DNA from: Mytilus galloprovincialis
Taxonomy: Eukaryota; Mollusca; Bivalvia; Mytilida; Mytilidae
Assembly (NCBI RefSeq): GCF_965363235.1
Contig: NC_134848.1
Span: 61,528,181-61,592,180, forward strand
Direction of reading: 5' to 3'
DNA length: 64,000 bases
In this document: positions 1 through 28,450 of the stretch, piece by piece
Numbering within the stretch: position 1 is the stretch's first letter
Layout: each line of letters opens with the position of its first letter
Position numbers and translations under genes: made by a program
The notes under the pieces: generated by a model
Seen by the model: the letters and a program-made list of their open reading frames with translations, nothing else
Told to the model about the DNA's origin: nothing
Database searches by the model: none

Positions 1-19
1 AGAAGTTAATTTTCCCATT
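1..19 (-). CDS. Possible first codons of paralogue E, cut by the window edge
   Basis: Read on the minus strand, an ATG at 17-19 opens MGKLTS before the window ends. It sits at about the same distance from the conserved upstream block as the start codons of genes A-C, whose signal peptides begin MKIS, MRLY and MKLS. It would be the signal-peptide exon of a fifth cluster member running out to the left. Only six codons are visible, so this rests on the position of the promoter block. Confidence 0.3.
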
Positions 20-215
20 GGCTCTGTCTTTTGAGAGAGCAATATATCTTTTGTAGTTTGAGTGGAGTTGAAATTATACGGATATTGATAAAAATAATGA
101 AATGCGTTTAAATTCGTTTGAGTATTTATCGACATGTGCAGATTTCCGATACTTGAGCGATGTTACAATGGTTGTTTGGTGTACACAATGACAGAAAGTG
201 TAGCTGATTCGATAC
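20..215 (-). promoter_or_regulatory. Upstream region of paralogue E (cluster promoter block, TATA decayed)
   Basis: This stretch matches the region upstream of gene A in order and spacing: a GAGAGAG block, then GTTTGAGTGGAG, then ACGGATATTGATAA, then TTTCCGATACTTGAG, then CAATGACAGAAAG (plus-strand reading). The position of the TATA box reads TTTGTAGT instead of TTTTATAGT, so the box looks lost, although an AT-rich TATATT lies a few bases nearer the start. It marks a fifth copy of the cluster unit. Confidence 0.6.
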
Positions 216-599
216 TAGCTTTAGTTTTCTTTTGAACAGGAAAAAGGAAATATTTGAATATTAATACATACAATTTTATAAAATGATGTGTCAGTCTTAA
301 ACAATGAAACAAAACCACATACCGTAAAAATGTAGTCGGCTGTTACAGATCTTATATCGTACATATAAAACAAGTCAATTGAGAAAACTAACGATATATT
401 TGTACAAAACAATCAACAACAAAAATATGATATACATGAACTAACGACATCCACTGAACTACAGGCTCCTGTATTAATACTATGTCAATTTGTCCATTAA
501 ATCGTCCGTTCATATATTTGACAGTATATCTAAATTAATTAACCCACAATACTGCATATTAGCAAATGCAGCTTATTCCTTCTTATATACAGACAATAT
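216..599. other. AT-rich spacer, nothing recognised
   Basis: There is no gene-like reading frame and no repeat shared with the rest of the window. It lies between the promoter of E and the decayed 3' exon of D. Confidence 0.5.
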
Positions 600-1500
600 A
601 AAAGAATTTAAATTTGGTGTTGTCAGGATACTTTCCTATTGGTATATGCATTCCAATTATCAATAAGACATGTTAAAGCATTGACAAATTAAAACTCAAG
701 CTAACATATTTCAATTTTTATTTTTTTGTTTAAAAAAAATAGTCAATATATTTTAGCGTTCTCCACCATGTCCGCCATTTCCACCATTTTAACTACCATC
801 GTTTCCCCCACGACCTTCCTGCTGACCGGTTCCTCCATTAACACTATTCCAATGACCACCATTTCCTCCACGACCTCCATGCTGAACGCTTCTTTCATTA
901 CCACCATTCCAACAACCCCCTTTTCCGTCACGACCTCCATGCGGACCGCTTCCTCCATTTCCACCATTCTAACGACCACCATTTCCTCTACGACCTCCGT
1001 AATGTCCGCTTTCTCCATTACCGCCTTCCCAACGACCACCGTATAATATTACCATTTTGTCCATTCTCACCATTTTAACCAATTGACCCATCTTCTCCAT
1101 TTCCACCATTCCAAGTATCACCATTTCCACCATTCCGACCTTTTCCTTTATTCCCACCATTCAAAGTATCACCATTAACACCATTCAAGGTAACCTCATG
1201 TCCTCCATGTTGACCATTTTCACCATTCCCATTATTTGAACTGTGTCCTCCATTCCCATCATTCAAATTATCACCATTTTACCTTTCTCATTCTTCCAAC
1301 CATTCAAAGTACAACCGTTTCCACCATTCCCATCATTCCAACGACCACCGTTTCCTCCACTACCTCCGTACAGACTGCTTTCTCCATTCCCACCATTTCA
1401 ACGACAACCGTTTCCTCCATTACCTCCATTCAGACCGCTTCCTCCATTCCCATCATTCAAAGTATCACCATTTCCACCTTTCTGTGAAATATTAGGACAA
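600..1500 (-). pseudogene. Decayed Gly/Asn-rich last exon, copy 1 (paralogue D)
   Basis: On the minus strand this codes for Gly/Asn repeats of the same kind as the last exons of genes A-C, in units of about 30 residues of the type GGRGGNGGRWNGGNGGSG, with runs such as NGGNGDTWNGGNGEDG. The frame is broken: a TGA stands where CGT TGG is expected near 1400, there is a length change near 1290, and further in-frame stops follow. It ends in GGHGGER and a TAA at about 755-765. The 600-725 part matches the 3' flank of copy 2 and the 3' UTR of gene C (CAATAAGACATGTTAAAGC). It has no Kunitz exon or splice acceptor of its own. Confidence 0.65.
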
Positions 1501-1609
1501 TTTGTTTACAATACGGGATGATTTATAGTTTGATATAATACATACATGTATAAATATACATGTTTATATTGTTGAAGACGACACATTAATTATAAAGTGT
1601 CTTTTATTT

Positions 1610-2430
1610 ACTGGTGTTGTCAAGATACTTTATTATTGGTGTATACACTCCAATTTTCAATAAGACATGTTAAAGCATTGACAAATTAAAACTGAAGTTA
1701 ACATATTTCAATTTTTATTTTTTTGTGAGTTAAAAGAAATTTAAAAAATAGTCAATATATTTTAGCGTTCTCCACCATGTTCGCCATTTCCATCATTTTA
1801 ACTAACATTGTTTCCCCCACGACCTGCATGCTGACTGCTTCCTCTATTAGCACTATTCCAACGACCTCCATTTATTCCACGACCTTCATGCTGACCGCTT
1901 CTTTCATTACCACTATTCAAACGACCCTCATTTCCTTCACGACCTCCAAGCGGACCGCTTCCTCCATTTCCACCAATCCAACGACCACCATTTCCTCCAC
2001 GACCTCCATGATGACCACTTCCTCAATTGCCGCCTTCCCAACGACCACTGTTCCCCCACGACCTCCATGCTGACCGTTTCCTTCATTTCCACCATTCCAA
2101 CGACTACCATTGCCTGCACGACTTCCATGCTGACCACTTTCTCCATTCCCGCCATACCAACGACCACCGTTTCCTCCACTATCTCCATACAGACCGCTTT
2201 CTTCATTCCCACCATTCCAACGACCACCATTGCCTCCATTGCTTCCATCAGACCGCTTCCTCCATTCCCACTATTCAAAGTATGACCATTTCCACCTTTC
2301 CCATTATTTTAACCGTGTCCGCCATTCCAAATACCTCCATTTCCACCATTTTGACCGTTTCCTCCATTTTCGTCCTTTCAAGTACCACAATTTCCACCGT
2401 TTCAAGTTCCTGTGTTCAAAGAAGGTTTTT
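1610..2430 (-). pseudogene. Decayed Gly/Asn-rich last exon, copy 2 (paralogue D)
   Basis: This is a second copy of the preceding unit with the same 3' flank, so the 3' end of paralogue D was duplicated in tandem with a period of about 1.0 kb. The minus strand reads Gly/Asn/Arg/Trp repeats (GGRGGNGGRW type). Its upstream edge near 2425 resembles the start of the gene B last exon (TGGAACACAAGAACTTCAAC). In-frame TGA and TAA codons and two or more length changes interrupt the frame, for example where GGTCTGATGGAAGC replaces the usual GGTCTG, NAT, GGA. It is not expected to make a full protein. Confidence 0.65.
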
Positions 2431-3118
2431 TTATTGTGACCTGGAAATGAACATGTATCATAATGTATTATATTGACGAGTCAAAAGTGATTGGTTCTTT
2501 GGAAATACTATATAATTGAAATAAAATAGCTAGCAGTATCAAGTATTTTCAACGAAGCAGCATCTAAGCAAAACCTTCTCAAAAACAAATGGAGTTCTTT
2601 TATTTCATGTTCAGATATTTGATGATGTGCGGTACAACAACAGCTCACATTAAAACGAGTCCTTCCATTACATGTATTCCGAGTTAACTTATTTGAAGGA
2701 TACTATCAATAATAGAACTTCGTTTCATGTCTTGATATTTAAAATTAAGATGGATGGACGACTTCAAAATTGATCTATGACAAACCTGCAAATGCAGTTT
2801 TCTATTTCAAGTTTTCATCTATTAGTACAATGGGACGATGTCAGCATCTCTATCGTGCCATCGTCAAAAAAGCTTAACGAAAACATCGATCTCCAAAGCA
2901 AATCCAAAAAAGGGGAAGTTAACAAAAATTTACAAAATCAAACGCTATCAATTAACGAAACAAGTCAAAAAGTTAAATTCAAACATCGTTACATCATACC
3001 AAATCTGTACATATGATACTATTAAAAAAGTTTCTCCGTGTAATTAAATAAATATCAAATAAGACTTCTAAAATAATGTGAACCTCATTAAATATACTAA
3101 TTGATATACATGTGCATT
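2431..3118. other. Former intron of paralogue D, no Kunitz exon found
   Basis: Both strands were read for the Kunitz Cys spacing (8-15-7-12-3) seen in genes A and B and nothing was found. The remainder is AT-rich without clear repeats. Confidence 0.5.
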
Positions 3119-3184
3119 CGTCTATTCCAAATTCAAGAAACTGATACAATCAGACAAATGACTAAGATGGTTAAAAAGTTTCAT
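3119..3184 (-). pseudogene. Relic of a signal-peptide exon (paralogue D)
   Basis: The minus strand from the ATG at 3182-3184 aligns base for base with exon 1 of gene C (ATGAAGCTTTCTATCATC). An extra T in the early TTT run shifts the frame, so the reading becomes MKLFNHLSHLSD and meets a stop at the former Trp-His-Arg end. The splice donor GTAAGT is replaced by GAATGC. Both defects say this copy is dead. Confidence 0.7.
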
Positions 3185-3350
3185 TTTCTTCAAATTTCTA
3201 CCTTGATAGAAGGGCACAGATGTGTTAAAGTCTTGATGAGGACATACAGACACGGATATAAGTAAGACAACGGGATGTGTTTTAATTTATATGAATAGTT
3301 TATGTCAGTAATGAAGAGGTTTCCGATACTTGCGCAAAATGATTGTTTGT
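3185..3350 (-). promoter_or_regulatory. Upstream region of paralogue D (TATA box lost)
   Basis: It shares GATGAGGACATACA, ACACGGATATAAGTAAG and CAACGGGATGTG with the gene C promoter and TTTCCGATACTTG with the E and A promoters. Where A-C have TTTATAGTC, this copy has TTAAAGTC, so the TATA box is gone, in keeping with the dead exon below it. Confidence 0.6.
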
Positions 3351-3848
3351 ATGAATCTCAGTTTATGACCAAACTCAGTAAAGACACATCATTGTTACAT
3401 TTGGTTGATACATTCAACAATACCTACCGTTATCTGGAAGATATTTTCTTTGAATAATCCAAAGTTCTCTTAATATACAACCAAAATTTACCCAAAAGAA
3501 CTTACTTTAACTAAATCTAACATAAACAGCAGCAGATGTCCTTTTCTAGATTTAGACAAATTCAATTTCTTAAGGGAACATCAATACTTAAATTTAAGAC
3601 AAAAAAGACGTTTTCATTACCTATTGTTAATTTTCCTTTTTTAGACGGCAATTTGCCTTTGGCTTCATCATACGGTGTTTATATATCCCAACTCGTTCGG
3701 TATGCCCGTGTGTGAAGGGATGTCATAGATTTGAACGAACGTAGTAAATTTGGATGTTCCTTAAAAACTTAAAAACTTATTAAAAATGGTATTTCACATC
3801 CTAAATTTTACGGTAATATTGTACTTTAAGCGCGGAAATCACTATGTG
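3350..3848 (+). mobile_element. Penelope-like element fragment (RT C-terminal part), left half
   Basis: The plus-strand reading shows reverse-transcriptase landmarks of Penelope-like elements: a RYLEDIFSLNNPKF segment, a CPFLDLDKF segment and FPFLDGNLPL followed by SYGVYISQLVRYARV. The copy is truncated at its 5' end and broken. It is split by the hAT-like element at 3849-5139 and resumes at about 5140-5235. Confidence 0.75.
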
Positions 3849-5139
3849 CAGGGCCGTAACTACACTGAGGCAAATGAGGCAAATGCCTCATGTTGAAAAC
3901 TTCAAAAAAAAAAAACTGAAACAAAAAAATTGTCTTCATATCAAATTGTGTTCACGGAAAGTGTCTTGCAAAAAAGAAAGTTCTCTTCACTCTCTGCTGT
4001 CGTCCCTGCATGTTTTTCGTGATCCATATTTCTATTTTACTTTTAGTTTTGTTTTCAGAGTTGATGGTCTATTGTTTGTTATTATGTGTCCCGGGTTTGT
4101 CTTTTGTTCATTTATTGTCCTACTTTGTGACGATAGTCTGAGGGTTAATTTCCATTTGTAAACGTGTGGTTTTGCAATGTTGCATGTTAACCGATGTCCA
4201 GACATCGTGCGACAAAAATATTTTAAGAATATACGATGCTACTGGACACAGAAAAAACTGGTCGTTTCTGCATGGGGCATTGAACTTGATATCAAAGAAT
4301 ACAAAACTGACTCTTTTTGTAGATAAAACTAAACAGCTGACATGGTTTAAATCAAAGTAAGACGACCAATTCATCGGTATCAAATCATCTATAAAAAAAA
4401 AAACATCACTGTATAGCCATATGACCTTTTACATTGAAGGATTAAACTTGCATTAAGTCTTGTTAAGACCCTTTAACAGAAAATAAAGGAATATGGAGAA
4501 AACGTACACGGGAACTAATCTCACACAAAGTCAATGCATAGAAAAAATACAAATGACCAATGTTCAAAGTTTTTATTCCTGTTCTTCATCTTGGTAGTAG
4601 ACGGAGGGTCTTCAACAATAAAAGAATCATTAATACCGTAAAACAAGGTCAAGATGGTTCTTAGTGTCGACTTAGGCAGTACTAGTACTTAAAGTATATT
4701 ACTGCACTGTCACTATGTTTAAATCTAGTCATTATAAAATCACCAAAGTCTAAGCACAATACAAAACAAGAACAGACAGTAAGACCCGGTTTTTATGACT
4801 ATGAGACTTACGATTTTTGCTTTATCCTACATATCGGTCTGCTAATGATGTTGTCCCCGTAAAACCTAAAAGTCCCAAATTACAATGAATCTACGTTTTT
4901 GCTTTGAGACCAGCATATTGTCGGAGAAAAATGGCTAAAATATTAATTGCGTTTCAATGTCAGAAAGAGTCTGGGAAACGCTCAGAATGCATGATTTTGC
5001 GTTATTTTTCTCAAAGCTTCTGGGGGTCTTAAGCGGCCCCCAGACCCCCCCCCAAGACCCCTCGCCGAAAAAAATTCGCCTCGCTACGCTCGGCATATAT
5101 ATTTTGCCTCACTATTAACAGAGGCTAGTTACGGCCCTG
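3849..5139. mobile_element. hAT-like non-autonomous DNA transposon (1291 bp)
   Basis: The ends are inverted repeats starting CAGGGCCGTAACTA, and the next bases on both sides are also related (GAGGC repeats). A 5-bp direct repeat ATGTG flanks it at 3844-3848 and 5140-5144. CAGGG-type ends are typical of the hAT superfamily. Most hAT elements make 8-bp duplications, but 5-6 bp forms are known. The inner right side has a GC-rich stretch with a run of C at 5041-5051 and GCCTCGCTACGCTCGGC. No transposase could be recognised in either strand. It sits inside a Penelope-like fragment. Confidence 0.7.
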
Positions 5140-5235
5140 ATGTGAATCGTGTAAACTCATCGAACCTTTAAACACACTTATAAGTAAGGATTATCGTATC
5201 AATGTTGTAATTAGATCTCCGAATATAGTTTACAT
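5140..5235 (+). mobile_element. Penelope-like element fragment, right half
   Basis: This continues the fragment that ends at 3848: AAACACACTTATAAGTAAGG and TATCGTATCAATGTTGTAA resemble the 59030-59080 part of the other Penelope-type copy (CTTATTAAGAAGGGAAATAG, ACGATACTGTTGT). It shows that the hAT-like element landed in an older element. Confidence 0.5.
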
Positions 5236-6395
5236 TGGCACTAACATCGATTTAGTCATTTGTAAATTAAAACATAACTAAATTTGTATTTTTTTTCAAA
5301 CGGGAATATAGAGACACACACACGTTCATTTTTATCTATAAAGAAGTCACTCCTAACTATCATACTACCTGTCGATACATTTATTTTTGGCATTGCACAA
5401 GTCATGTTTTCTTTGCCTGTTCATGTCGTTAAAATACTAAATCCCTGGGATGTTTTATAGTTGAATTTAGTCTCTGATGTATAATATTTATTATTAATTG
5501 TTTTGGCTTTTAACTAGCTATCAGTAACTGCGAGTGATCTCAAATCATACTTTCTTGTTAATTTTACCTGTTGATACTATTTGTAATGCTTTTTGGTTAT
5601 TTAATGTTAACATGGATTTTGTCTATATACCAGCTTTGATTATTTGTATTATTATTAAGGTGTGGTAAATATTTCAACGAGACGACAACCTGACGACAAA
5701 AGAATCTGAGGTCTGTTTATTATTTTCTGCTATATTCAAATATTGTTGATGAAGCATGATGTTATGAAAGATGTTTTGACACAATATATTATGCATGTTT
5801 CTGTCAAATTTTACATCCAGAGCCAAATTCAATTAATATAGTTTCAGCTGAAAAACGTAACCTCGCTTTAGTTTCAATACTATTTAGTTCAATACTACAA
5901 TTACATCAAATTATTGTGGAAACCTGAAATATAAACTAAATTAAACTTGTATTTGTTGAAATGACTATGGTGTGCAATAACATTCATGGAAATAAAGCCA
6001 TATGTATTTGACAAGTTAAAATTTGATGTTTGAGATACATAACCGTATTAGGTTGTGTTCACACTGACCTATATTCGGCGTTGTGGTAGTGTAATTCACA
6101 CGTAAACTAAAAACAATTACGTTCCCATTGATAAAACGCAATGTTTACATGTAGTTTAAATCATGTTTTGTCTACATGCAATCGATAGTCAATGTAGGCC
6201 TTGTGTGGGTTAAGTTTACACAAAACTAGGTATTTAGAACGTAAATTTTACCATGTAGAATTAAACAAGAAACTTTTAAAAAAATTTTAAATACATTGAT
6301 CAACATTGATAACAATGATCAATAAAGTTCTCAACATAATTATGTTTCTGAATTTGATAATTTGCTTTGTTATAAAAAACACCTTTAGGTAGCAT
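5236..6395. other. AT-rich spacer
   Basis: There is no gene signal. The 5500-5530 part (TTTTGGCTTTTAACTAGCTA) resembles 43690-43710 and may be a trace of a dispersed mussel repeat. The rest shows nothing. Confidence 0.4.
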
Positions 6396-7162
6396 TAGAG
6401 GTCAGTCATTTACAAACGTATCAACCGTACCGTATACGTTGACGTATCCGCATCTGGAGATATATCAAAAATATTATGTGATCCCGAGCTTATTAATAAG
6501 ACTATTTGTCAATAAAAAAAACTAATTTGAATCTCTTCGAAACAATCAAATATTCACTTTCAATATTTGTGATTGTGATGTTTTGTAAAAAAAAAGTAAG
6601 GGGTTCTATCAATTACTTTTACATGCCCTTAAAATTGAGCCAATGAAGGGCAGGTGCGCGAGTATCGTACACAATCCTTTAATGATCTAGTTAAAAAGAT
6701 ATTTCAAGATCTTAAATGAATAAACACCAAACAAAATTAAAATCAAATTTTCTACTTATATACATGTAAGGAACTTTGAATATTGTTCATGCACGATTTT
6801 ATCATGAAAGGTAATAGAAACGTCCTGAGAATTTCTCTATTTGTCAAATAAAAATTTAGTTCTTCGTGAGTATAAGTTCCCACACAAACAAACGATTTTA
6901 CCGTATTCACTCCTATCATGCCTGTAAACTGTTCCAATTATCCGGAATATCTTTAAAAGTTGGATTACATTTTCCACAAAAACTCGATATTTCCTAATTG
7001 TTTGTAAATGTCTGTATTAGAAATTAATCAGTTGCCCATTTGCATGATTGAAAGTACATAAGATTAAAGCTGGGGATCACATACTGATTTTGGTATATCT
7101 GCAGATGCGGATACGTCAGCGTATATGATACGGTCGATACGTCTTTAAATGACCGACCTCTA
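6396..7162. mobile_element. MITE with about 95-bp terminal inverted repeats
   Basis: Both ends read TAGAGGTC(A/G)GTCATTTA inward and stay alike for about 95 bases, through GACGTATCCGCATCTG and ATGTGATCCC(G/C)AGCTT. The outermost TA could be a TA target duplication, as in Tc1/mariner-type elements. The 570-bp middle is AT-rich without a transposase. Confidence 0.8.
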
Positions 7163-7884: not shown

Positions 7885-8170
7885 TCTGTTGTTAGTCACC
7901 ACTTCGGTGTTGACATGTTTATCAATTGTATGGTGATTTTTATAAATTTACTGTTTGCAAAAGTATGAGTTATTGTAAATACTAAGGATTCTCTTATCCC
8001 AGGCAGATAACCTTAGCCGTTTTTGACACAACTTTTTGGAATTTTGGGTCATCATCCCTCTTCATCTATGTTTGGCTTTCTTTACTATTTTGACCTGGGC
8101 GTCACTGATGAATCTTATGTAGACGAAACAAGCGTCTGACGTATCAAATTATAAGTCTGGTACCTTTAAT
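7885..8170 (+). repeat. Dispersed repeat family 1 (GACGAAACGCGCGTC type)
   Basis: It begins near ACTTCGGTGTTGACATG, contains ATCCCAGG, CCTTAGCCG and GACACAACTTTTTGGA, then GTCACTGATGAATCTTATGT and AGACGAAACAAGCGTCTG, and ends near TGGTACCTTTAA. The same order recurs at 29590-29885 and, in part or inverted, at 12430-12620, 23205-23400, 36810-37010, 37200-37400 and 55640-55850. It is a short non-coding interspersed element. Confidence 0.75.
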
Positions 8171-8189
8171 TACAATTAGCATGTCTAAA

Positions 8190-8722: not shown

Positions 8723-8728
8723 TTTATT
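8723..8728 (-). terminator. Possible poly(A) signal of gene C
   Basis: AATAAA on the minus strand, about 90 bases past the gene C stop, within a 3' flank shared with the decayed D copies. Confidence 0.45.
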
Positions 8729-8818: not shown

Positions 8819-11598
8819 TTACCAGCCTCTCCCACCATTTCCACCATTGCCACCTGTCCACTGACCACCATTTCCGCCATCTCCGTTATTCCAACCATCT
8901 CCTCCATTTCCACCTCTCCATCGACCACCATTTCCCCCGTATCCGCCATACCCTCCGCCTCCGCCTCCGCCATTCCCACCATTCCAAACACCACCGTTTC
9001 CACCATTCCCAGTTCTGGCGTTCCAATCAGGTTGAGGTTTAGGTTTTGGTTTTGGATCTGAAAAAAAACCAGTAATGAGTGAGAGCAATCGGTTTCTCGA
9101 ACATAATCTATAAATACAATAGTGAATATTATATACTGTTTAAAACATATGGAATTGAAACACAGACTTGATGATCAGATGTAAATGTGTTCAATTAGAT
9201 ATCGCAGATCAAATTTATTCGTTTATAGTGTATTAATGTACGTTTTTTGATTGAGTTAAGCCTGCCAATCCTATTGTTTCAGAAAAAGGGGGAAGGCTTG
9301 GATCCATTAAAACGTTTAATCCCGCTGCAAATGTTTGCACCTGTCCTAAATCAGGAATTTGATGTACAGTAGTTGTAGTTTGTTTATATAGTTTATACGT
9401 GTTTCTCGTTTCTCGTTTTTTTATTCTATATAGATTAAACCGTTGCTCTCATCATATATACCAGATACAAAAAATATATATATTTAAGATATGATGTAGA
9501 CGAATAAGATACAGTATAATGGTTTTTATATAGCGAATATTTTAGGAATACAAATATTGCTATCAAAGTTTTCTGAAACTTAGTATATCTTTTACATGAT
9601 AGATTTGTTGAATGAAACAAATACAGTACAAACAAATACTTCCTACTTATGGAGTCTTCTCCTGAATGTATTATAACATTTGAGCATACAACCATTATAT
9701 TCATACTGGTCTAATGGGACGAAAAAGGAGAAAGAGCTCGAGAGATCGAAGGGAAGATCGAAAGTGAAAGAAGATGACTGGTCTTAATAAAGGAAAGAGA
9801 GAAAGAGATCGAAGGAAAGACATAGAATGTGAAAGAAGATGATTTGTCTAAAGAAAGGAAAAAGTAGAAAGAGATCGAAGGCATCGAAAATGAACGAAGA
9901 TGATATGGAATGTACGTCAGCTGTTTAAGGGAACACATGTGCTTAGTTGAACTCATCGTTATAAAAAAGGCGACTTTTTGGGCAATGGTAATATATATGA
10001 ATGATGCACACTAGTCGATGATATTTTATTTCGAATACTTACAAATAAAAATGCCTTATTATAGATGAGAATCGAAAACGAGGGACAATCAAATGGTTTC
10101 ACGTACCGAAATAGGCAACTCTTCCAAGTAATGTTTAACATAAAAACAACGGGTATGGACTATCCAACGATGACACAAAATCAGACCGTTAAGGTAGATA
10201 ATAAGTATATACTTTTTGAGACAGAATTTTCTTATAAAATGCCAAAATGAAGATTTTACTTGCTTTTATTTAAAAAATTTAATAAAAAGTATGATCACTG
10301 TGCTATTTTTCAAGCTATGAGTCGTTGAAAATTGCATAAATTTGGTTAGATTGTTCATGAAAAAACACATTTGTGTGCATTTAAAAAAATCTATGAGACA
10401 GAAATTTGATATAAATTGTGAGAAAATAGGTTTTAATATATGTTTGAGAAAATAAAAAGAAAAAATGGTGTCACCGAATTTGTTTTCTTGCTACAAGTAA
10501 AAATAAAAAAAATCCCTGTTAGTCCAGTATAATTTTTTTGCTAAAAGAGTTATCTCCCCTTTAATGGCTCATTTGAAAAGTGATTATAGTTTGAATATTT
10601 TAAATAATACAATAAATCAACAAGTTTTCTTTGTATAAATAAACAGTCTTAACTATTAAATTGTAAATCTGTCTCCAAATTTGCAGATTTGGGTAAATAA
10701 CTAGACCGATTTTGTACTGTGATTGTACAATCCAAGATGGCGGTATACCATGAATCTACCTTAACAGCCAAAAACACAGAGAAAGCCTTACAGTAATGCA
10801 GACGTCTTATAAGACATCTTGATTTTGACTACCATTTGGCCTACGGTAATCGATGGCCTGCAATTATATTGAAGATGAACATCCAACCAGCGATTTGAAT
10901 CAGACATGATAACTGAGCTATAAGGTCATAGCAAATGACTTAACTCTGCACTTCATTTATTGTGGTCTATTGACTGATAGACTACACCTTCCCCCTAAAC
11001 AGAGCCTTTTCTACAAAAGGGGAATCATAGTTCTGTTTAATTTGAGAACTAGTACGTTATGAATAACTACAATGATTTTATCAACAAACACACGTAATTA
11101 AGATACTGTATGTTGTTAACGCTATATTTTGACGTTGTTGGCATAGTTATAGTTACGAAGTCAACGTCTTATTCAAACGTCTTTATAACTCAACAGCACC
11201 CGAATGTGCTAATGTTCCATGAATTAAAACTAATTTGGTTTATCTTATACTTTTAAAATTTTATCTCAAAGATAAAAAGTATAAAAAAAAATTTTGAATA
11301 GGTCCGTTAAACTGGCAGATAAATAAAAATAAAAAATTGGATGATTTGAATTTAGAGTAAAATATTAATGATTATATATTACTTTAATCGTTTTCTAGCT
11401 GTCAATCAATTGCCATCAACCAGATCTGTACATGGAATCATTTCAGAAAAATACTTTGCAGTGGAATCAATTTAATTAAAGACTTCTGAAATAGTGTTAA
11501 CAACATAATTATTACTAATAAATCATATACTTACGCCTATGCCAAGTCCCAGAAACTGAAACAACCAGACAGACCACTAAGATGATAGAAAGCTTCAT
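8819..11598 (-). CDS. Gene C: secreted Gly/Asn/Trp-rich protein, Kunitz-less paralogue (100 aa)
   Basis: Two exons are inferred: 11535-11598 (signal peptide MKLSIILVVCLVVSVSG then TWHR, donor GTAAGT, phase 1) and 8819-9057 (acceptor TTTTTTTTCAG, stop TAA). The joined frame has no stop. After the predicted cleavage near residue 17 comes a Pro-Lys linker (PKPKPKPQPD), then GGNGGVWNGG, a Gly/Tyr run (GGGGGGGYGGYGG) and further GGNGG units with Trp every 10-15 residues, ending GGRGW. In genes A and B the same Pro-Lys linker leads into the Kunitz domain. Here it runs straight into the Gly-rich tail, and no Kunitz exon was found in the 2.5-kb intron. It is likely a structural extracellular protein. 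No catalytic residues are visible. Splice sites are by eye. Confidence 0.75.
9290..9450 (+). repeat. Dispersed repeat fragment in gene C intron
   Basis: The part with TTAATCCCGCTGCAAATG, TTTGCACCTGTCC and AAATCAGGAA resembles the start of the Penelope-type 3' tail at 61800-61865 (TTTAACCCCGTCGCATTTT, GCGCCTGTCCCAAATCAGG). It then continues differently, so it may be a separate but related family. Confidence 0.4.
9715..9910. repeat. Purine-rich tandem repeat, three units of about 65 bp
   Basis: GAAAGAAGATGA and GAAAGAGATCGAAGG recur three times with period about 65. It lies in the gene C intron and codes for nothing recognisable. Confidence 0.6.
10187..10766. mobile_element. MITE in gene C intron (about 580 bp)
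   Basis: The ends read GTTAAGGTAGAT on the left and ATCTACCTTAAC on the right and stay partly alike further in (GTATA-AC). The inner part at 10300-10450 (CAAGCTATGAGTCGTTGAAA, CACATTTGTGTGCAT) recurs in both arms of the inverted-repeat element at 34949-36796. Confidence 0.65.
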
Positions 11599-12414: not shown

Positions 12415-12625
12415 AATTCATGAACGATAACATTGATATGAGCATCAATATAAATTTATTGTTTACAAAACTTTGAACTTTTCGACATACTAAACATTTT
12501 CTACCCCAGGAATAGATTACCTTAGCTGTGTTAAACAAAAAAACAAAAAACGATTTATTAACAAACTTCGTTATACAAAACGTATCATAAAAAACTAAAG
12601 ACTGCATGAACAACATGACCTCCAC
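12415..12625 (-). repeat. Partial copy of dispersed repeat family 1
   Basis: Minus-strand ATCTATTCCTGGGG, TTTGTAAACAATAAATTT and nearby parts match the first half of family 1. The end with GACGAAACGCGCGTC is missing. Confidence 0.4.
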
Positions 12626-14095: not shown

Positions 14096-14099
14096 TTTT

Positions 14100-15890: not shown

Positions 15891-16259
15891 ATACATTGAA
15901 AGTACAGACTTAAATAGTATGAAACAAATGCAAGCTCAGCATATTTTAGATTAGTTGTAGCCTCAACAAGTTCATGTTCATGTCAAAAGTGTTTTATGTG
16001 TCATACCTTAACATTTCATTGATAGTTTTAGGCAGATTTTTCATAGTTCCTGTTAAACTTTGTGACACCTTTTTCAACACTGGATGATTTTGAGCTTGAC
16101 ATATTTTGAAACATCTATCCATTGTTGGAGACTGTTATGTTGACCTCTGAATATTTTGCTTATCTCTGTTTCCGAGTTGCTTTTGTCGTTTACCCAACAT
16201 TTAATTTGGTTTAAGATATATAAAAATACCAACAAATAAAGATGTATTTGAATAGAGTA

Positions 16260-16475
16260 TTTATATTGATTTTTTGTTACATTTGATAGAATATGAATGC
16301 AAATAAACGAGTATAATCCTTTCACATGGTAAAGTGTCGATAGTCCGGAACCTGGTTAGTGTTTGTACCACAATTTTCAAGATTTCTACCATTCCAAAAT
16401 CCATCGCTCCCGCCATTCCCACCGTTTCCCCAATTTCCACCTTTCCAAACACCACACTTTATTTGTTTATTAGGT
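16260..16475 (-). pseudogene. Duplicate of the gene B 3' end
   Basis: The minus strand reads VWKGGNWGNGGNGGSDGFWN followed by a tail ending near QVPDYRHFTM, matching the end of gene B and its 3' flank (AAATAAACGAGTATAATCC at both places). No good splice acceptor stands before it, so it is taken as a leftover of a tandem duplication of about 240 bp and not as an alternative last exon. In this copy the C-terminal QVPD is in frame with the Gly-rich part, unlike in gene B. Confidence 0.55.
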
Positions 16476-16651
16476 ATCTAAAACACCAACACATAAAGAC
16501 GCATATGGATAGATGTATTTATATTTTTTTTTACATTAAATAATATATACAAGTAAATGCAAATAAACGAGTATAATCCTGTCACATGTTAAAGTGTCAT
16601 TAGTCCGGAACCTGTTCAGTGATTATACCATGATTTTCACGGTTTTCTCCA

Positions 16652-18511
16652 TCACCCATTAAAATTTCTACCATTCCAAAATACACTGCCTCCGCCATTT
16701 CCGCCATTCCCACCATTCCAAACACCACCGCTTCCGCCATTTCCACCATTCCAACTGCTTCCACCATTCCCACCAACCCAAACGCCACCGCTTCCTCCAT
16801 TTCCACCAGATGGTTGCCATGTTGAAGTTCTTGTGTTCCAACCTCCCGTTCCACCACTATTCCCTTGATGACAACCTTAATATAAAAGATATATGGTCTA
16901 GTGCTTTCAACACGTTTAGTCAGTTGAACTGAGCGTTAACATTTTTAAATTATATTAGATTCAACATGCCAAAGAGTTTCAAAAAACTAAACAATTTCAA
17001 CCGTAATTTATTATAGGTCAAATGCATTTTTATAATAATCAATATTCACTTATAAGGAAATTGATCGATATGAGATTGTGTTGATCTTTCAAAACATGTT
17101 GTGATAAACTTTTGAATGGTAGGAAGTTCTTTCTACAATACTGGTACCTTGTGAATCACATGTGAAATATATTGTTCAAGATATTATCGGCATAAGTTTG
17201 TAGATATACTTATCCATAACATTTGCATTCATTTAATTACAATATTGTAGATTATGAAATTGTTATGTCAACTTTCCCACTTATTTTGCCACCACGTATT
17301 TCGTGACAACAGAAGGTAAAACCAAAAAAGTAAGGAATTGGCCGTTTTAGAATCTAAAGCATGATGGGTAATTTCATTGTTCGTACCTCAAAATGAAAAA
17401 AACGTCACGTCATTGGTTAAATTTCCATTGTTTATGAAATTTTTAACCAATCAGGACGTTTTGGTGTACACATTTGAAAATATTACCCAGAATGCATTAG
17501 ATTCTGAAACGGTGAATTTGATATAAAAATTTTACTCACATGTGTCACTACATTCTCTGAAAGTTTTGAAACGATTTGCGTTCCCCTTACAACCTTTGTA
17601 GTGAAATTCCTCGCACCGTCCGGTTGCCGTGTTATAGTAGAAACGTCTTAACCAGGAGGAACACCGTCCTGAATCTGGTGGTAAGTTACAACTAGGTTTA
17701 GGTGTTGGTCCTAAAAAAAAACCAATAACATATGGTGGTAAGGTACAATTAGGTTCAGGTTTTGTTCCTGGAAAAACATTAAATCTGAAGGTAAAGGTCA
17801 ATGTGTTCAGGTTTTGTTCCTGAAAAAATATAAAATCTGAAGGTAAAGTATGGTGGTAAGGTACAATTAGGGTCAAGTTTTGTTCCTGGAAAAAATATAA
17901 AATCTGAAGGTAAAGTACAATTAGGGTCAGGTTGTGTTCCTGGGAAAACATAAAATCTGAAGGTAAGGTACAATTAGGGTCAGGTTTTGTTCCTGGAAAA
18001 ACATAAAATCTGAAGATAAGGTACAATTAGGGTCAGGTTTTGTTCCTGGAAAGGTACAATTAAGAAAAAAATTGGTCCTAGAAAAACATAATAGCTGTCA
18101 TATTTTATTGTGAAAGTAATCTATTCCCCGTTAATATGAAACAGACACAAAAGATATGAGATATCATGTTTTTTTTTCTAATTATAAGCTTTATAAAATA
18201 TAGTACCCATAGAGTATAAAATAATCAAATGTATGTGTATTTAAAAGACAGCTAAATATAGCCATATTCAAGCCTAATTAACGCGCAAACTATTTAAACT
18301 AAAAAAAAAAACAATCTAAAATGCAAAATCAATGAGTGGGACCTTTTAAAGTAAATTAGTAGTCTTAGGATAATCATATAAATATAGTATAAAACTTGTA
18401 AAAAAAAGGTGAACAAAATAACTATATTTTATAATTGATATACTTACGCCTATTCCAAGTTCCAGATACTGCTACAATCAGACAGACGACTAGGATGATA
18501 TAAAGCCTCAT
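16652..18511 (-). CDS. Gene B: secreted Kunitz and Gly/Asn-rich protein (152 aa)
   Basis: Three exons are inferred: 18448-18511 (signal peptide MRLYIILVVCLIVAVSG, then TWNR), 17540-17710 (Kunitz) and 16652-16875 (Gly-rich), with GTAAGT and GTGAGT donors and phase-1 joins. Kunitz cysteines fall at about residues 29, 38, 54, 62, 75 and 79, spacing 8-15-7-12-3, the exact BPTI pattern, with the sixth Cys codon split by intron 2. The P1 and P1' residues are Ser-Ser and are followed by Trp. The tail has WNTRTSTWQPSGGNGG and SSWNGGNGGSGGVWNGG units. Compared with the duplicate at 16260-16475, a 22-23 base length difference makes the frame end early at TGA, leaving QVPD out of frame. Likely secreted matrix or protease-inhibitor-like protein. 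Intron 1 holds an array of extra splice-acceptor copies. Confidence 0.82.
17760..18085 (-). repeat. Array of Kunitz-exon acceptor copies in gene B intron 1
   Basis: Minus-strand units of about 53 bp repeat the 3' splice site and the start of the Kunitz exon: a T-rich run, CCAG, then GAACAAAACCTGACCC and TAATTGTACCTTA, comparable to the true GGACCAACACCTAAACCT and AGTTGTAACTTA. Exon-like starts fall at 17767, 17819, 17885, 17939, 17992 and 18045, and a seventh, CTAG-type, at 18077. Those at 17767 and 17992 are in frame with the Kunitz exon (57 and 282 bases before it), and the frame is open throughout. Confidence 0.75.
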
Positions 18512-19106: not shown

Positions 19107-19325
19107 AAAAAAAAATCGATCTCTACCAAATAATTCCAATTAAACCTATGTAGAAAGCAATAATCCTTGGCGCGGCCAAAAAAAAGAAATCGATCTCTAC
19201 CAAATAATTCCAATTAAACCTATGTAAAAAGCAATAATCCTTGGCGCGGCCAAAAAAAAATCGATCTCTACCAAATAATTTCAATTAAACCTATGTAGTA
19301 AGCAATAATCCTTGGCGCGGTAAAG
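19107..19325. repeat. Tandem repeat, three units of about 70 bp
   Basis: ATCGATCTCTACCAAATAAT, TCAATTAAACCTATGTA and AGCAATAATCCTTGGCGCGG recur three times separated by runs of A. The copies are nearly identical. Confidence 0.9.
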
Positions 19326-21799: not shown

Positions 21800-21809
21800 T
21801 TGATGGTTA

Positions 21810-23065
21810 CAAAAAACGACGGAAGATAACAAAGGGACATTCAAACTCATAAGTCAAAAATAGACTGACAACGCCATTACAAAATAAAATAAAGGCCCAA
21901 AAGACAAACTATACACAAAACTCAAAATAAAAATTTATAGACTGAGCAACACGAACCCCTAACAAAACACCGGGGTGATATCAGGTGCTCCTAGAGGGTA
22001 AGCAGATCCTGCTCCCCATGTGGCACCCGTCGTTTTTTTTTATCATGTTAATACAAACCCGGTGATAAATCTAAATTGGTAGATCCCATTCGGGGAAAAA
22101 AGGCCGGAATTGTGATTACAACAATTGGAATATATCGGTCGTCATCTGTGAAACAGATATTCATTAACGGTCAGCCAACTGTTAATGGCGTCCGTTATAT
22201 TAACACTTCACCACTTCACCACTTGGAACGCTTGGTCTCATAGCTTTCTTGTTAGCAGCAATCCTCTATCAAGAAAATCATGATAGTAAAAAAAAACTAG
22301 CCCTGGGATATCGTATCAACTAGGATATACTGTGGATTCCTTAATATTCGTGGATTTTCATGGATTTCGTGGGTAAAGGTGAACCACGAATTCAAATGTT
22401 CAACGAAATACAAATGTTATATGGGTTGTATGCCGACTTTGGCAAAACCACGAAATAAAAAATCCGCAAAAATGCAATGTTTACTGAATCCACGAAAATT
22501 GATACCCACGAAAATAAACGAATCCACAGTATGTACTTTATATGTAGGCGCTGCTCGAATGTTGCTACATAGAAATGGAAAATTCACAATTAGGGAGGTG
22601 AAATAATCTCTTTTTTCATAAAGTTTTGTTTTCAAGCGACCCTCCACGTCAATTTCTAAATATAAATCAAGATATGGGGCAGACTTAATTGCATCTATTG
22701 TATCCTTTATTTCAAGGTTGGCGGGATAGATGCGTTCAGCATAGTGACCAAACATTGAATTATTTATGGGAAAGTCAAGTTAAAGGATCATGCTAACTTA
22801 TTTTCTTTCTACCTTTTAGAAGATCCTTTATGAAATTATCCTCATTTGAATATAGAAACAGTTCGACAAGATGAGGAGCACAGTAATTTTTAATGGGAAT
22901 GCCGGAATTTTTTTTTAACTTGTCTTTCAAATGTAACAAATAGTTTGTCAATCAAGTATTCAGGCATCTTGATAATGTCATATTTGTTTGAATTAGAGGG
23001 ACTTTTTGTATAGTACGATGTGTCCCTCCCTAAGAAAAGGTACCCCTAATTACGATGACCATTCT
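21810..23065 (-). mobile_element. Second Naiad-type Penelope-like element, 5'-truncated
   Basis: The minus strand carries the RT C-terminal part (ERIYPANLEIKD, APYLDLYLEIDVEGRLKTKL, KRDYF, IVNFPF) and then the same 3' tail as the Naiad-type element at 30-33.5 kb (GTGCCACATGGGGAGCAGG near 22020). It is a broken, older copy and is interrupted by the MITE at 22328-22531. Confidence 0.8.
22328..22531. mobile_element. 204-bp palindromic MITE inside the Naiad-type copy
   Basis: The ends read TACTGTGGATTC and GAATCCACAGTA. Further in, TTCGTGGATTTTC, TTTCGTGGGTA and their inverted forms (ACCCACGAAAATAAACGAAT) pair, so most of the element can fold. TA is the likely target duplication. The ends suggest a mariner-type MITE. 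Confidence 0.8.
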
Positions 23066-23660
23066 ATTTGTATACAGGTTTGTTCTAGTTTAAACATATT
23101 TTATTTGCTGAATTAAAGCAAAATGGATTAGACACAAGTAAATCATACTTATGAAGTCCTCTCCATATTACAATATAAAATTACAATTATAGTATATAAA
23201 CTCATCATAGATACCAGGACTAAATTTTGTATATACGACAGATGCGCGTTTCGTCTACAAAAGATTCATCAGTGACACTCGAATGCAAAAAAGTTAAAAA
23301 GGCCAAATAAAGTACGAAGTTGAAGAGCATTATGGACCAAAAGTCCTAAAAGTAGGTAGAAAAGCCTTAGTATTTAAACAATCCAAATTTTGTAAACAGA
23401 TACATGTAATTCATAAATATAACCATATCATTCATGTCAGCACATAGTATAATATAATGGACATGCATATTAAGCGAACAGTTTATACAATTAAATACAA
23501 GCTATCATAAGTAAAGAAAAAGAGAGAGATAAAAAATATAGACAAAGAAAGTTTGAAAAGTCATATAATTCGGTGATGATGACGTGAGTGTTGATGATGA
23601 TGTTGATGATAATGATGACGTTCCGTGTCAGTATAAATAACGCTTTATGAAGGCACAACA
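23066..23660 (-). repeat. Dispersed module adjoining the Naiad-type copy, with a family 1 insertion
   Basis: The minus strand has AAGTATGATTTACTTGTGTC, AATCCATTTTGCTTTAATT, ATATGACTTTTCAAACTTTC and a (TCA)n-rich part, in the same set as 33560-33905 next to the other Naiad-type element. A family 1 piece (GACGAAACGCGCATCTGTCG and GTCACTGATGAATC at about 23240-23280) lies inside it. Confidence 0.6.
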
Positions 23661-24174
23661 AGGTAAAGGTTTGTTTAGGTCAATCAATTAAGCAAGCGAC
23701 AATCAATCGTTATATTCTTGTATTTCATATTATGTGCAAAATTATTATCCCAGCCCAGTAAATGAAATACATCTTGTCCTAACTTTGTCTATGATATCGG
23801 TGCTGAAATTTTTATTGTTAGTTTTTAAAAAAAATTTATGAAATGTCCTGCGCCCTTATAGATTTTGTGTGAGATTTCCTGTTCATAAGTTATTACATAT
23901 CTTCTACTTCTACTTTTATTTATACCGGATAACAACCACAATTATTAGACTGAACATTTTGCCATGACTTCGGTGCGCATACTCCTCGATTCTTCCAATC
24001 ACTAATGGTTCGTGGAAAGAAAGAATATTTCCGGTAATCACTTCATGATGCTGGAATTTGGAAGCTTCTGTAATGCATTGTTTTGGCAGTCAAGCGACCA
24101 TCCCTTGTCACTGCAACTTTCCCTTTAACAATTTTGAAGAGTATGGAGGGTCTTGCATCTTTTCGCCTTTTTTC

Positions 24175-24365
24175 CATAGATCTCCATGCCAGGTGATTTG
24201 GTCCGTTTCTGTGTGTGTAACATTTTAGTGTTGTGTCGTTGTTCTCCTCTTATATTTAATGCGCTTCCCTCGGTTTTAGTTTGTTACCCCGATTTTGTTT
24301 TTTGTCCATGGATTTATGAGTTTTGAACAGCGTTATACTACTGTTGCCTTTATTAAGCATCGTAC
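24175..24365 (+). repeat. Dispersed repeat family 2 copy
   Basis: CATTTTAGTGTTGTGTCGTT, CCCTCGGTTTTAGTTTGTTA and GAACAGCGTTATACTACTGT follow the same order as the copies at 8290-8480 and 41560-41660. Confidence 0.6.
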
Positions 24366-25799
24366 TAACAGTAGGATGATTTATATGTGTGTTCATTACA
24401 TATCGTTGCTGCTCGTCTCTGGTTTATTTCTTGTCGGTCTAGATATGTTTTATTATATGTATCTCATAACACACATTACAAATTCCTAACAATGCAAAAT
24501 CGGCCTTAGCCGGTTTGTGTATGATCTTTTAAGCAACTTTAGCTTGTAACATACATTATATGCTCTCAAATTGTGGTTATACATTTGCAGACTTATTTAT
24601 TTGTCTCCAGCATAAAGGTGCATGTTATTATACTTGCGCATAAAACCACTCCATTAAAGGCAAAATATGACCAAAAGGGGGAAAAATGGTTTTATATATC
24701 AATAGATATGTTATTCTTAGTGAGACATTCAACGTATTTGTTTACAGTTCACACAGTATTAATGCAGTTTTCTGTTCATTTTTATAAAATTTCCTTCAAG
24801 CGTCACTGAGAAGATTTTATGAGTTGATATTTGTTGAAATCAAATAGTATCAGGCTGAACCTTTCCCGTTCAACTAGTTGTACCTCATTGTTTTCAGATG
24901 AAAGCTCACATAATCAGCATAATGACGACCCTTGTTCATGTAGGCGGTAATATACTGTATAGCTTTGAAGGCGTTGACAATACGACACTCACCCGATAAG
25001 TTAGGTATTTATGAAAATAAGAAAATATGGTAGGGTTGCCATTGAGACAACTATCCAAAAGAGACCAACATGGCATTGTTCCTTTTTTATTAACTTGATT
25101 CTTAACTGTTAGAAACCCCATAGAAACATGAAGGTGCCGTTGTGTATTTTACGTCCTTAAATAAAGGTGTTTCATTAGTTTTTTTGTCAAGGGCGTTGTG
25201 TTGTCTGTTGTTCTTCAAATTCTTGTTTGATTGGATACTTGTCCTTTTCTCTCGTTTCTCCATTGCCGTTTTGTGTTAGTACCAAACGACGATTCTATTA
25301 AAACAACAATTAGCATTGTGAGTGGGAGAGCTAAGTAATGATGATCATATTTTTATTTTTAGGCGTTTTCATTAAACAAAAAGTAGTATTTTGCTAAACA
25401 TATGGCGGTATTATGTTCCGACTTGCAGTTTTACTTGCAGAAAATGTTCTATACCTAATGAAAATAGTTAAACATCTCCCCTTTTACTATTTGTAGCTAG
25501 ATTTGGTGGTATCTTTAGAGGTCCTTCGCTCCTTTTGAACATTTGAGTTGTCAATACATTACTTTTTCAATGCGAATGATATTGCAGGCAGAACGTCTAT
25601 AGATATTAAGGTTATTGTATTTTAGCACGTGGTCCATATTTAAAAAAAACTTTCAGGTGGATTTGAATAAAACAATATTATGGCCAGTTTATTTTTATAT
25701 TGTAAAACGACGAGCAACTCCGTTCCACAGGCTAAAAACGATTGAACGAGAGAAATCAATTATAACGCAAATGTTGCATTGATTTAATTCAATAAATTC
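24366..25799. other. Spacer downstream of gene A, nothing coding
   Basis: No domain, no clear repeat apart from a short mussel-repeat-like piece at 25025-25080. Confidence 0.4.
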
Positions 25800-25805
25800 T
25801 TTATT
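25800..25805 (-). terminator. Possible poly(A) signal of gene A
   Basis: AATAAA on the minus strand about 180 bases past the gene A stop codon. Confidence 0.5.
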
Positions 25806-25985
25806 CGACAAAAAGTATACAAATAATGGTAATGAAAATGTTTGGCAGTCAAATTCTCCATCTTAAATATGCATATTACATGTTGCATGTTGTTTACATG
25901 AATTATTACACAATTTCTTTTCATCACATGAATGCTTAAGAAATACTAGTAGACGAGAATGTTATATTCAGTGTCAAGGCCATAA

Positions 25986-28194
25986 TCACGCCGGGGATGG
26001 TTTTTGGCCTTTAGTAGACATCTCATCGGTACCTCCACCGTTTCCGCCATCACCTCCGCCACCACCATTTCCACCATTTCCACCATTACCGCCATTTCCT
26101 CCGTTTCCGCCATTTCCACGACCTTCAGTAACACCACCATTCCCACCATTTCCGCCATTACCTCCATTTCCTCCATTTCCACCACCATTATCGCCACCAC
26201 CATTTCCGCCATTCCCACCGCCTCCACCATCACCTCCATTACCAAAACCGCCATCTCCGCCATTACCTCCGTTTCCCCCATCACCTCCATCACCAAAACC
26301 GCTATCTCCACCGTTTCCACCGCCTCCTCCGTTACCTCCGTCACCAAAACCACTATCTCCACCATTCCCGCCATTCCCTCCATTACCTCCATTTCCGCCA
26401 GATGGCATCATTGTTTCAGTTGTTGAGTACTTGCCAACCCCTCCATCCATATTTGGTGTCATGCCTCCATTAGAACTCATGTCGATTTGTCCTTCGCCTA
26501 AATAATAAAAATAACATCTAATTGTTATATATATTTACTGGTTTTTTTTACATTATAGTCAGATAACCCATTTATAACGTTCGATCAATAATGTTTACAA
26601 ATGTTGGAAAACGATGGGAAAATTATAACTCATTAATTGAAAAACGCGACATAGAAAACTAAAGATCGAGTAATACGAGCCCCACAAAAAACGGAAATGA
26701 TTTTAGGTTCTCAGGAAGGGTAGGCAGATCCTTCTCTTTACGTGAAACCCGATATGTTGAGTTAGTTAGTGATTTTTTTTGCCAGGAGTAATATACACGC
26801 CTTGTTCAAACAATAAACATTATACAAATCTGTCTCTACATACTTGAACATTGAAGTTGTTTGCATATGATCATATATTGGAATGACAAATATTAGTATT
26901 AAGTTTTTCAATGTTGATTTATTCGGTATACATCTAAAAACTTCCTGTTTCATTGTGTTTATAAAAAAAGAAAAAAAAATATATAAATTTTAGCTCCCCC
27001 CTCCGTTTTCTCCATTTCTCTCACCCTCAACATGCTCAAGAAAACAAATATTATATATATAGATGTGAAAAACAAATCTGTTACTTACATGTATCTCTGC
27101 ATTTTTGTAAAGTTTTGAATCGATTTGAGTTTCCCCGGCATCCTTTGTACCTGAATCTCTCGCATGCTCCGGTTTCGGTATTAAAGAAGAAACGTCTCAA
27201 CCAGAAGAAACATTTGCCTGAGTCTACTGGTAAACTACAATCCGGTTTGGGTTTTGGTCCTAGAAAAGTACATTTATTTTGTATTATTATGAGATAAGAA
27301 ATGCTAGTTGTTTTTAAAGGACGAAATGATCGTTGTTTTTTTCAAAGCTAGTATGATATGTAAGAGGAACTTTAACGAAAATATGCATATAACGTGAAAA
27401 CTTTAATTAAAAGTTCCTTTCACTTCCTTTTTAAAAACGTTTCTGGAACATATTCTCGTAAATAATGTTCAACGTTTCTCAATGATTATCTTCTGTCATT
27501 CTTTTCATCAATTTTCAATGGTTGACGTCGTCCGAGTCAAGTATGACCACCTATGGTGTGCAGTGTTTCTGACATATACAGACCTAATTGTGCAATAACT
27601 ATATCACATTTGATAGTCTCTTTTTAATTCATTCCATATATCTTGGATTCCAACAGATTTAAAGAAAAATGTTACGGACAATTGTTACTCAGTAAAGACC
27701 GTTTGTAAAACTCTAGATCTATGTTTTTGATACTTATCGGGCATTTGGTAGCTGTTTCTAAATAGTTGTACTGGCAGGAAATTGCTTCTGTAGAACAATG
27801 ATTATGATAAGGGCCTTTTATTTTAACAAAAACAATGAGAAATAAAAAAATAATTAATAATAATTAACATAAAGATTCATTTTAAAGTGTGATAATTTCA
27901 GAAGCAAAGCAAAATCGATCTAGCGTGCACGTGAATACTCAGGTCTAAATATATTTTAAATTAAAATGATCATATTATTTATTAAAAATGTAAAACACAA
28001 CAACAATTGAACTCACCGACAACAAATAGATAAAACATTTACAAAGGAGCTTAAATTATAAATAAAAAAAATAAATAAAAAAATTCTGAAATATTAAGGA
28101 ACACATATTATATATACGTACGACTTCTTCCCCAGTTCCAATGTCCAGAAACAGACACAATCAGACAGACAGCTAAGGTAATTGATATCTTCAT
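25986..28194 (-). CDS. Gene A: secreted Kunitz and Gly/Asn-rich repeat protein (251 aa)
   Basis: Three exons are inferred: 28122-28194 (signal peptide MKISITLAVCLIVSVSG, then HWNWGRS; donor GTACGT), 27089-27259 (Kunitz; acceptor TTTCTAG, donor GTAAGT) and 25986-26497 (Gly-rich; acceptor ATTATTTAG, stop TGA). All joins are phase 1 and the frame is unbroken. Kunitz cysteines lie at about residues 32, 41, 57, 65, 78 and 82 with exact BPTI spacing, preceded by a PKPKPD linker. P1 and P1' are Phe-Phe, unlike active trypsin inhibitors, where P1 is Lys/Arg and P1' is small. After a Met/Ser/Thr linker (MSSNGGMTPNMDGG) come about 130 residues of GGNGG with Asp-Ser-Gly-Phe-Gly-Asp-Gly inserts. It is likely an extracellular matrix component of shell or byssus. 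The inhibitor role is doubtful. A Naiad-type 3' tail lies in intron 2. Confidence 0.87.
26590..26765 (-). mobile_element. Solo 3' tail of the Naiad-type element in gene A intron 2
   Basis: The minus strand reads GGATCTGCCTACCCTTCC, AACCTAAAATCATTTCC and TAGTTTTCTATGTCGCGTT, as in the terminal repeat at 33340-33440. Old and diverged. Confidence 0.55.
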
Positions 28195-28450
28195 CTTTTG
28201 TTGGTTTAAGTCGAGAGAGAGGTACAGATGTTTTATAGTCTGAGTGGAGGTGTATTACTACGGATATTGATAAGGCGACGGGATGTTTAATAAGTCATTT
28301 TAGATATCAAACGTGATATACAGGTTTCCGATACTTCAGTTTTGTTTATGATTGATTTCATAAGTAGTACAATAAGACAAAAAATATCATTAACAAATGT
28401 TAATCATTCATTGATACGTATAAAGTATTAGTAATATTCAAAAAGTACAT
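28195..28450 (-). promoter_or_regulatory. Gene A promoter with TATA box
   Basis: TATAAAA on the minus strand at 28231-28237, 37 bases before the start codon. The cluster-wide blocks follow: GAGTGGAGGTGTA, TACGGATATTGATAAGGCGAC, GGTTTCCGATACTTCAG and GTACAATAAGACA (plus-strand reading). Confidence 0.7.

Follow-up and report, generated by a model that had tools for sequence, protein, structure and literature searches.

What does a row of related genes make when two of its members pair a folded Kunitz head with a glycine- and asparagine-rich tail, a third keeps the tail without the head, and a fourth has fallen into decay? The question is raised by a 64,000-nucleotide stretch of the Mytilus galloprovincialis assembly GCF_965363235.1 (contig NC_134848.1, positions 61,528,181 to 61,592,180; the whole stretch is called the window below). 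Five related units, A to E, stand head to tail on its minus strand between positions 1 and 28,450; A, B, and C are intact, D is decayed, and E is cut by the window edge (Table 1). The answer favored here, given about an even chance of being right, is that tandem duplication has produced a family of small secreted bivalve proteins, probably from a mussel, whose Kunitz head and Gly/Asn(/Trp) tail would be laid down in an extracellular secretion.

Joined at GT-AG borders, the exons of A, B, and C give uninterrupted reading frames, and all five introns are in phase 1 (862 and 591 nucleotides (nt) long in A, 737 and 664 in B, and 2477 in C). When the first 32 kb were compared with themselves by blast on one strand, the units proved homologous from the core promoter into the signal-peptide exon. 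The promoter and exon 1 match between C and D (E=4.4e-42), between B and C (E=1.3e-17), and between A and B (E=6.0e-6); B and D match in exon 1 (E=3.6e-8), A and E in the promoter only (E=1.7e-6), and the Kunitz exons of A and B match each other (E=5.8e-21). Aligned over the promoter and exon 1, and 40 nt into the intron where A-D are concerned, the ten unit pairs show 54-69% identity. The ATG is preceded by a TATAAA box at 43 nt in A, 46 nt in B, and 45 nt in C; at this place, D has TTTAAC and E has TACAAA. Judged from sequence alone, the spacing of 43-46 nt hints that no exon consisting only of 5' untranslated region (UTR) lies upstream. The 3' flanks of A, B, and C share CATGTGA, which has the longer form ACATGTGAC in B and C.

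Each intact unit begins with a signal-like hydrophobic N terminus, and A, B, and C would be expressed as secreted-type proteins; values for mature proteins assume that cleavage follows the signal-like stretch. The A product is 251 amino acids (aa) long and the B product 152 aa, each with a signal peptide, Kunitz domain, and Gly/Asn tail, and the C product, of 100 aa, is a signal peptide and tail without cysteine. An earlier note, made by a model from the letters of the DNA, had described a tandem family of secreted-type Kunitz and GGN-tail genes, phase-1 exon borders throughout, and a decayed unit D. The self-blast homology, the Pfam matches of the Kunitz exons, and Gly/Asn tails of differing length bear out the first of these, the five introns the second, and the frameshift, stop, and lost donor in exon 1 of D, together with stops through its tail, the third.

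The Kunitz identity of the middle exon in A and B is clear. PF00014 is matched by A with E 8.4e-18 (64.8 bits) and by B with E 2.4e-18 (66.5 bits) against a gathering cut-off of 21, and each copy has six cysteines at the standard spacing. Intron 2 splits the codon of the sixth (Cys6), T|GC in A and T|GT in B. The nearest relatives by sequence in the PDB come from SmCI, boophilin, and TFPI, inhibitors with several Kunitz domains that are not known to have Gly/Asn tails, and the reactive-site residues differ from theirs. An AlphaFold2 model of the B Kunitz exon, built from a two-sequence input, has a pLDDT of 70.2 and a pTM of 0.49. When it was searched with Foldseek, all of the matches listed (50 of 217, E up to 10) were Kunitz chains by title, with TMq 0.64-0.73, although for some of these chains membership in the Kunitz family is presumed. 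This suggests, with modest confidence, that the exon adopts the Kunitz fold. NCBIfam gave no match to A, B, or C at E 0.1. A short pattern from the B Kunitz domain occurred in 302 and 25 stretches of the prokaryote and viral collections, respectively, but tblastn at E 1e-3 upheld none of them, as expected since this is an animal gene.

Could these be classical secreted serine-protease inhibitors, with the Gly/Asn tails as passive linkers? The six cysteines at standard spacing and the strong Pfam and PDB matches would fit. Trypsin-type Kunitz domains, however, carry Lys or Arg at P1 and a small residue at P1', and a bulky P1' is unfavorable. The P1-P1' pair is Phe-Phe in A (aligned to SmCI, boophilin, and TFPI) and Ser-Ser in B (aligned to SmCI and boophilin), so that Lys or Arg stands at P1 in neither. 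In addition, C has a tail without a Kunitz core; therefore, the tail is retained independently of the inhibitor. Classical inhibition is thus unlikely as an account of the family, and a canonical trypsin inhibitor was rejected as its leading explanation on these two grounds. Because P1 is not of the trypsin type and the bulky P1' is unfavorable, an anchoring role or a weak, unusual inhibitory one appears more likely.

The three intact tails contain 41-52% Gly, 15-16% Asn, and 0-2 Tyr, with 9-25 Asn-Gly pairs each; such pairs are prone to deamidation. Lys and Arg are scarce in the Gly/Asn repeats. A six-frame scan of the whole window for stop-free 40-aa segments with at least 60% Gly+Asn returned six, all on the minus strand and in the units (three in A, with B, C, and the D region contributing one apiece). 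No such segment appeared across 20 shuffled copies of positions 1-30000 (2-kb blocks, minus strand, every 5 residues), these being single-base shuffles, which destroy repeats too. The Gly codons of the intact tails use all four third bases. In the A-B Kunitz exon, nonsynonymous divergence (dN) is 0.23 and synonymous divergence (dS) 0.97, and in the signal peptides of A, B, and C they are 0.12-0.22 and 0.43-1.08 (Nei-Gojobori, on few codons, 56 and 20, respectively, and with dS near 1). Because dN is below dS and Gly third bases are used fourfold, the signal-peptide, Kunitz, and tail modules look kept as protein, with tails that vary in length, charge, and side residues. The description of the family as fast-evolving suits the tails; in the signal peptide and Kunitz domain, dN stays under dS.

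Taken together, the favored deposition reading could work as follows. The tail, which from its composition is probably flexible or disordered, would serve as a hydrated filler or network strand. The head would be a disulphide-stabilized, protease-resistant anchor or a weak inhibitor guarding the secretion. The secretion itself might be a shell or byssus matrix, mucus, or a hemocyte or wound matrix. Unit B adds a seventh cysteine just past Cys6, which could be a cross-link site.

Unit C raises a question of its own, that of how a member of this family came to have no Kunitz core. A Pfam search of the C protein gave no PF00014 match, yet its terminal exon opens with PKPKPKPQPD, resembling the Kunitz-exon openings PKPKPDC of A and PTPKPSC of B. 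The 33 nt around the acceptor of this exon were compared with 1,400 minus-strand AG sites in positions 1-30,000. The top nonself match is the start of the B Kunitz exon (27/33 nt), and ranks 2-8 (20-23/33) are taken by six copies from an acceptor array in B and by the A Kunitz-exon start; the three sites at 19/33 are the D terminal exon (2440) and two unrelated ones. For the 18 exonic bases alone, B matches at 14, A at 13, and one array copy at 13. Farther along, the motif WN[TA]RT links C (WNART-GNGG) to the B tail exon (WNTRT) at 14 of 16 nt. The terminal exons of C and D agree at 27 of 36 nt, a score reached by none of 2,000 shuffles; the shuffles used for these fusion links are single-base shuffles.

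The Kunitz-less form of C therefore looks like the product of an exon fusion, an intra-exon event rather than a clean exon skip. A deletion would have brought the beginning of the Kunitz exon up against sequence within the tail exon, with loss of the Kunitz core and of intron 2 but not of the frame. Such an in-frame deletion is the simplest and most likely history. The reverse direction, in which the Kunitz-less form is older, is a possible alternative. Simple loss of the Kunitz exon was rejected because the last exon of C opens as a Kunitz exon does. The earlier note had C without Kunitz and the exons of the family free to be shuffled. The Kunitz core is indeed absent, but more than a missing exon appears to be involved. 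Likewise, the Kunitz exon is symmetric (phase 1-1, 171 nt in both copies), as free shuffling would want, but the change in C looks like an intra-exon fusion. The likely fusion in C and the acceptor array in B are novel details beyond that note's outline. The cluster offers a readable example of how molluscan low-complexity secreted proteins possibly gain or lose a folded domain: behind the same promoter and signal-peptide exon, the Kunitz cassette is present, apparently fused away, or part of a decayed unit.

The array in intron 1 of B consists of copies of a pyrimidine tract-AG-G followed by the Kunitz-exon start, with would-be exon starts at 18077 (partial), 18045, 17992, 17939, 17885, 17819, and 17767. 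Tandem Repeats Finder resolves a 53-nt array inside it (17855-18052, 3.7 copies, 93% matches). Exon 1 joined to 17992 or 17767 keeps the frame to the normal stop, giving predicted products of 246 and 171 aa, respectively, versus 152, and the 17767 form gains one Cys. Joining to the other five copies leads to early stops. Two more AG sites in the array, 17956 and 17836, also preserve the frame and are candidate acceptors. The array represents a natural test of spliceosome choice among eight similar 3' splice sites. Upstream of unit B, there is a 74-bp tandem repeat (19107-19320, 3 copies, 94% matches).

Several observations weigh against the deposition reading and the fusion. Splicing is predicted from genomic DNA and the tissue is conjectural, and reading through the donor likewise yields Cys6 in A and B, because of which the split codon backs the acceptor more than the splice. 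Third codon positions hold only 20 of the 45 A-B Kunitz differences, and the Phe-Phe and Ser-Ser reactive sites disfavor strong canonical inhibition. As for the fusion, a non-Kunitz site at 13117 matches 12 of the 18 exonic bases, level with two array copies; 9 of 2,000 shuffles equal the C-to-B score for the 3' half; and in a wider scan including the WNART segment, the B site falls outside the ten best, with D at the top (20/29). The likeness of D to the Kunitz-exon start is poor, its score being reached by 33 of 2,000 shuffles against A and by 197 of 2,000 against B. Finally, mature B and C are strongly basic (cleavage assumed; charge about +8.5 and isoelectric point (pI) 9.7 for B, about +4.6 and pI 10.5 for C) and would suit a role as defense peptides too.

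A shell or byssus role, which the earlier note had put forward along with the mantle, is one of two live possibilities, the other being defense in hemocytes or mucosa. The second is the more tentative: The units would encode effectors of hemocytes or the gill mucosa, in which cationic Gly/Trp/Asn chains (C and the B tail, both with Trp) hit microbes and the Kunitz head blocks microbial proteases or the animal's own. The basic charge of B and C would suit this, as would the cysteine-free chain of C, but mature A is acidic (pI 5.4), with Asp in its tail, and C has no dibasic site. Known proteins are compared here, and below, by description and not by sequence. The tandem cluster, pseudogene, and phase-1 coding intron recall the clusters of myticalins, a Mytilus gill family of antimicrobial peptides, which are also lineage specific and have a signal peptide and a low-complexity chain (PMC12294457). 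Myticalins differ in that an exon of 5' UTR, probably absent here, precedes their coding exons, and in their dibasic site and anionic C-terminal extension; the available text on them does not mention a Kunitz domain (PMC12294457). Membership in that family was rejected, as C lacks a dibasic pair and is basic overall, versus the defining dibasic site and anionic extension. A top-25 list for stimulated hemocytes of M. galloprovincialis includes the transcript of a 'Gly, Ala and Asn-rich protein', with a fold change of 383 (PMC4581086). Gly-rich antimicrobial peptides are, on the other side, stated to be unknown in bivalves (PMC12294457). A bolder version, in which C is a cationic, cysteine-free Gly/Asn/Trp defense peptide of a class new to bivalves, born by fusion from a Kunitz-carrying matrix or inhibitor gene, while the B array gives N-terminal variants from one locus, is quite improbable; if true, it would fill that gap.

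The lower end of the cluster invites a different doubt, namely that the locus as a whole is decaying, with most units relics and A-C intact in appearance only. The lesions of D, as read in the assembled sequence, the altered TATA position of E, and the partial second tail copies downstream of B and D would agree with this. Unit E amounts to just 18 possible coding bases plus upstream sequence. A, B, and C, however, retain their frames, splice sites, TATA boxes, and dN below dS, which makes general decay very unlikely.

Table 1. Features of the five units, listed from A to E
Feature	Positions	Strand	Remarks
A exon 1	28122..28194	-	Signal peptide (MKISITLAVCLIVSVSG) and HWNWGRS; donor GTACGT, phase 1; cleavage site assumed
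A exon 2	27089..27259	-	Kunitz exon, 171 nt, phase 1-1; P1/P1' Phe-Phe
A exon 3	25986..26497	-	Tail of 169 aa (52% Gly, 15% Asn) ending in a stop; supplies the rest of the Kunitz Cys6 codon (T|GC)
B exon 1	18448..18511	-	Signal peptide; donor GTAAGT, phase 1
B intron 1, acceptor array	17711..18078	-	Seven extra copies, before the modeled exon start 17710
B exon 2	17540..17710	-	Kunitz exon, 171 nt, phase 1-1; P1/P1' Ser-Ser
B exon 3	16652..16875	-	Tail of 73 aa rich in Gly, Asn, and Trp, ending in a stop; supplies the rest of the Cys6 codon (T|GT) and a seventh Cys
Second partial copy, end of B tail exon and 3' UTR	16197..16392	-	79% identical to 16454-16652
C exon 1	11535..11598	-	Signal peptide; donor GTAAGT, phase 1
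C terminal exon	8819..9057	-	Kunitz-exon-like start PKPKPKPQPD, then WNART and Gly/Asn/Trp tail; no Kunitz core
D exon 1, decayed	3119..3184	-	Broken by a frameshift and an in-frame stop; no GT at the donor; TTTAAC in place of the TATA box
D terminal exon, decayed	1750..2440 (lower end approximate)	-	Many stops; like C terminal exon, 27/36 nt
Second copy, D tail and 3' region	615..1482	-	87.5% and 89% identical to 1612-2051 and 2143-2300, respectively
E, possible signal-peptide exon start	1..18	-	Truncated by the window edge; sequence upstream of it aligns with A-D

Across the window, GC content is 27-39% per 2 kb and about a third overall; a mantle transcriptome of M. edulis has 32.97%, and scallop and oyster have 38-39% (PMC8382897), a weak pointer to a mussel-like bivalve. 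A tblastn search for further Kunitz or signal-peptide exons gave nothing better outside the units than E 0.11 (37146-37178), and no Rfam family (gathering threshold) or tRNA was found in the window. An open frame at 53215-53883 (+) encodes an AIG1/GIMAP GTPase domain (PF04548, E 6.6e-50). Broken frames lie at 30306-33051 (+), 22417-22779 (-), and 57876-58181 (+); they resemble what are presumably pieces of Penelope-type retroelements, and five frames from these regions gave no Pfam match at E 0.01. The translated frames at 34860-35243 (+) and 36508-36801 (-) are similar and opposite in orientation, possibly the ends of one inverted repeat element, and have no Pfam match. At 36800-37547, a 390-bp unit is present in 1.9 copies with 99% matches, a recent duplication. 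A 168-bp tandem repeat occupies 47550-48038 (2.9 copies, 92% matches), and a dispersed repeat occurs at 29603-29882, 7893-8165, and 12449-12532 (79-84% identical, one strand).

How does the cluster compare with known systems? No description of a Kunitz and GGN-tail protein was found in the literature searched, which leaves most subscription journals outside it. In one set of 25 papers from that literature, three had the GGNGG string, in a polymerase chain reaction primer, resilin, and an Ascaris peptide. The parts are more familiar than the whole. Tails of this sort recall TMP-1, a byssal thread matrix protein that is Gly-rich with Asn; unlike them, it has a Tyr-rich consensus, GYGYGNYGYGY (PMC6474901). 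Membership in the TMP family was rejected, since the Tyr-rich GYG/GNYG repeats do not occur in tails with so few Tyr. A glycine-rich secreted protein of Mytilisepta is reported to be gill specific (PMC5549309), and Mytilus shell repair involves families of repetitive low-complexity proteins (PMC8194122). The Kunitz head likewise has company. Kunitz proteins are reported from mollusc shells, namely KCP_HALAI of abalone and papilin-like proteins of Perna (PMC2989941, PMC6641155, PMC3374290), and from pearl-oyster mantle (PMC3120837). The genes expressed strongly in the foot of Perna include ten for proteinase inhibitors, which were suggested to be byssus guards (PMC7971044). Like A and B, KCP_HALAI and the papilin-like proteins are mollusc proteins with Kunitz domains; unlike them, KCP_HALAI has two such domains, and the available text on these shell proteins does not mention a Gly/Asn tail.

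Further parallels are found in gastropod shells. Lotgi1|239447 of Lottia gigantea and GAAP_HALAI of Haliotis asinina are shell proteins with a Gly/Asn-rich low-complexity domain, and the former combines that domain (55% Gly, 28% Asn) with a Cys-containing domain and has a pI of 9.5 (PMC3374290). The difference is that its Gly/Asn domain precedes the Cys domain, and the latter is not termed Kunitz in the available text (PMC3374290). By the sequence features used for shell Gly/Asn proteins, A-C qualify, each with a signal-like N terminus and a Gly/Asn-rich region. Exact exons and peptides are now defined for shell, byssus, mucus, and hemolymph data. The cluster is filed here with the known molluscan low-complexity secreted proteins that carry a protease-inhibitor domain.

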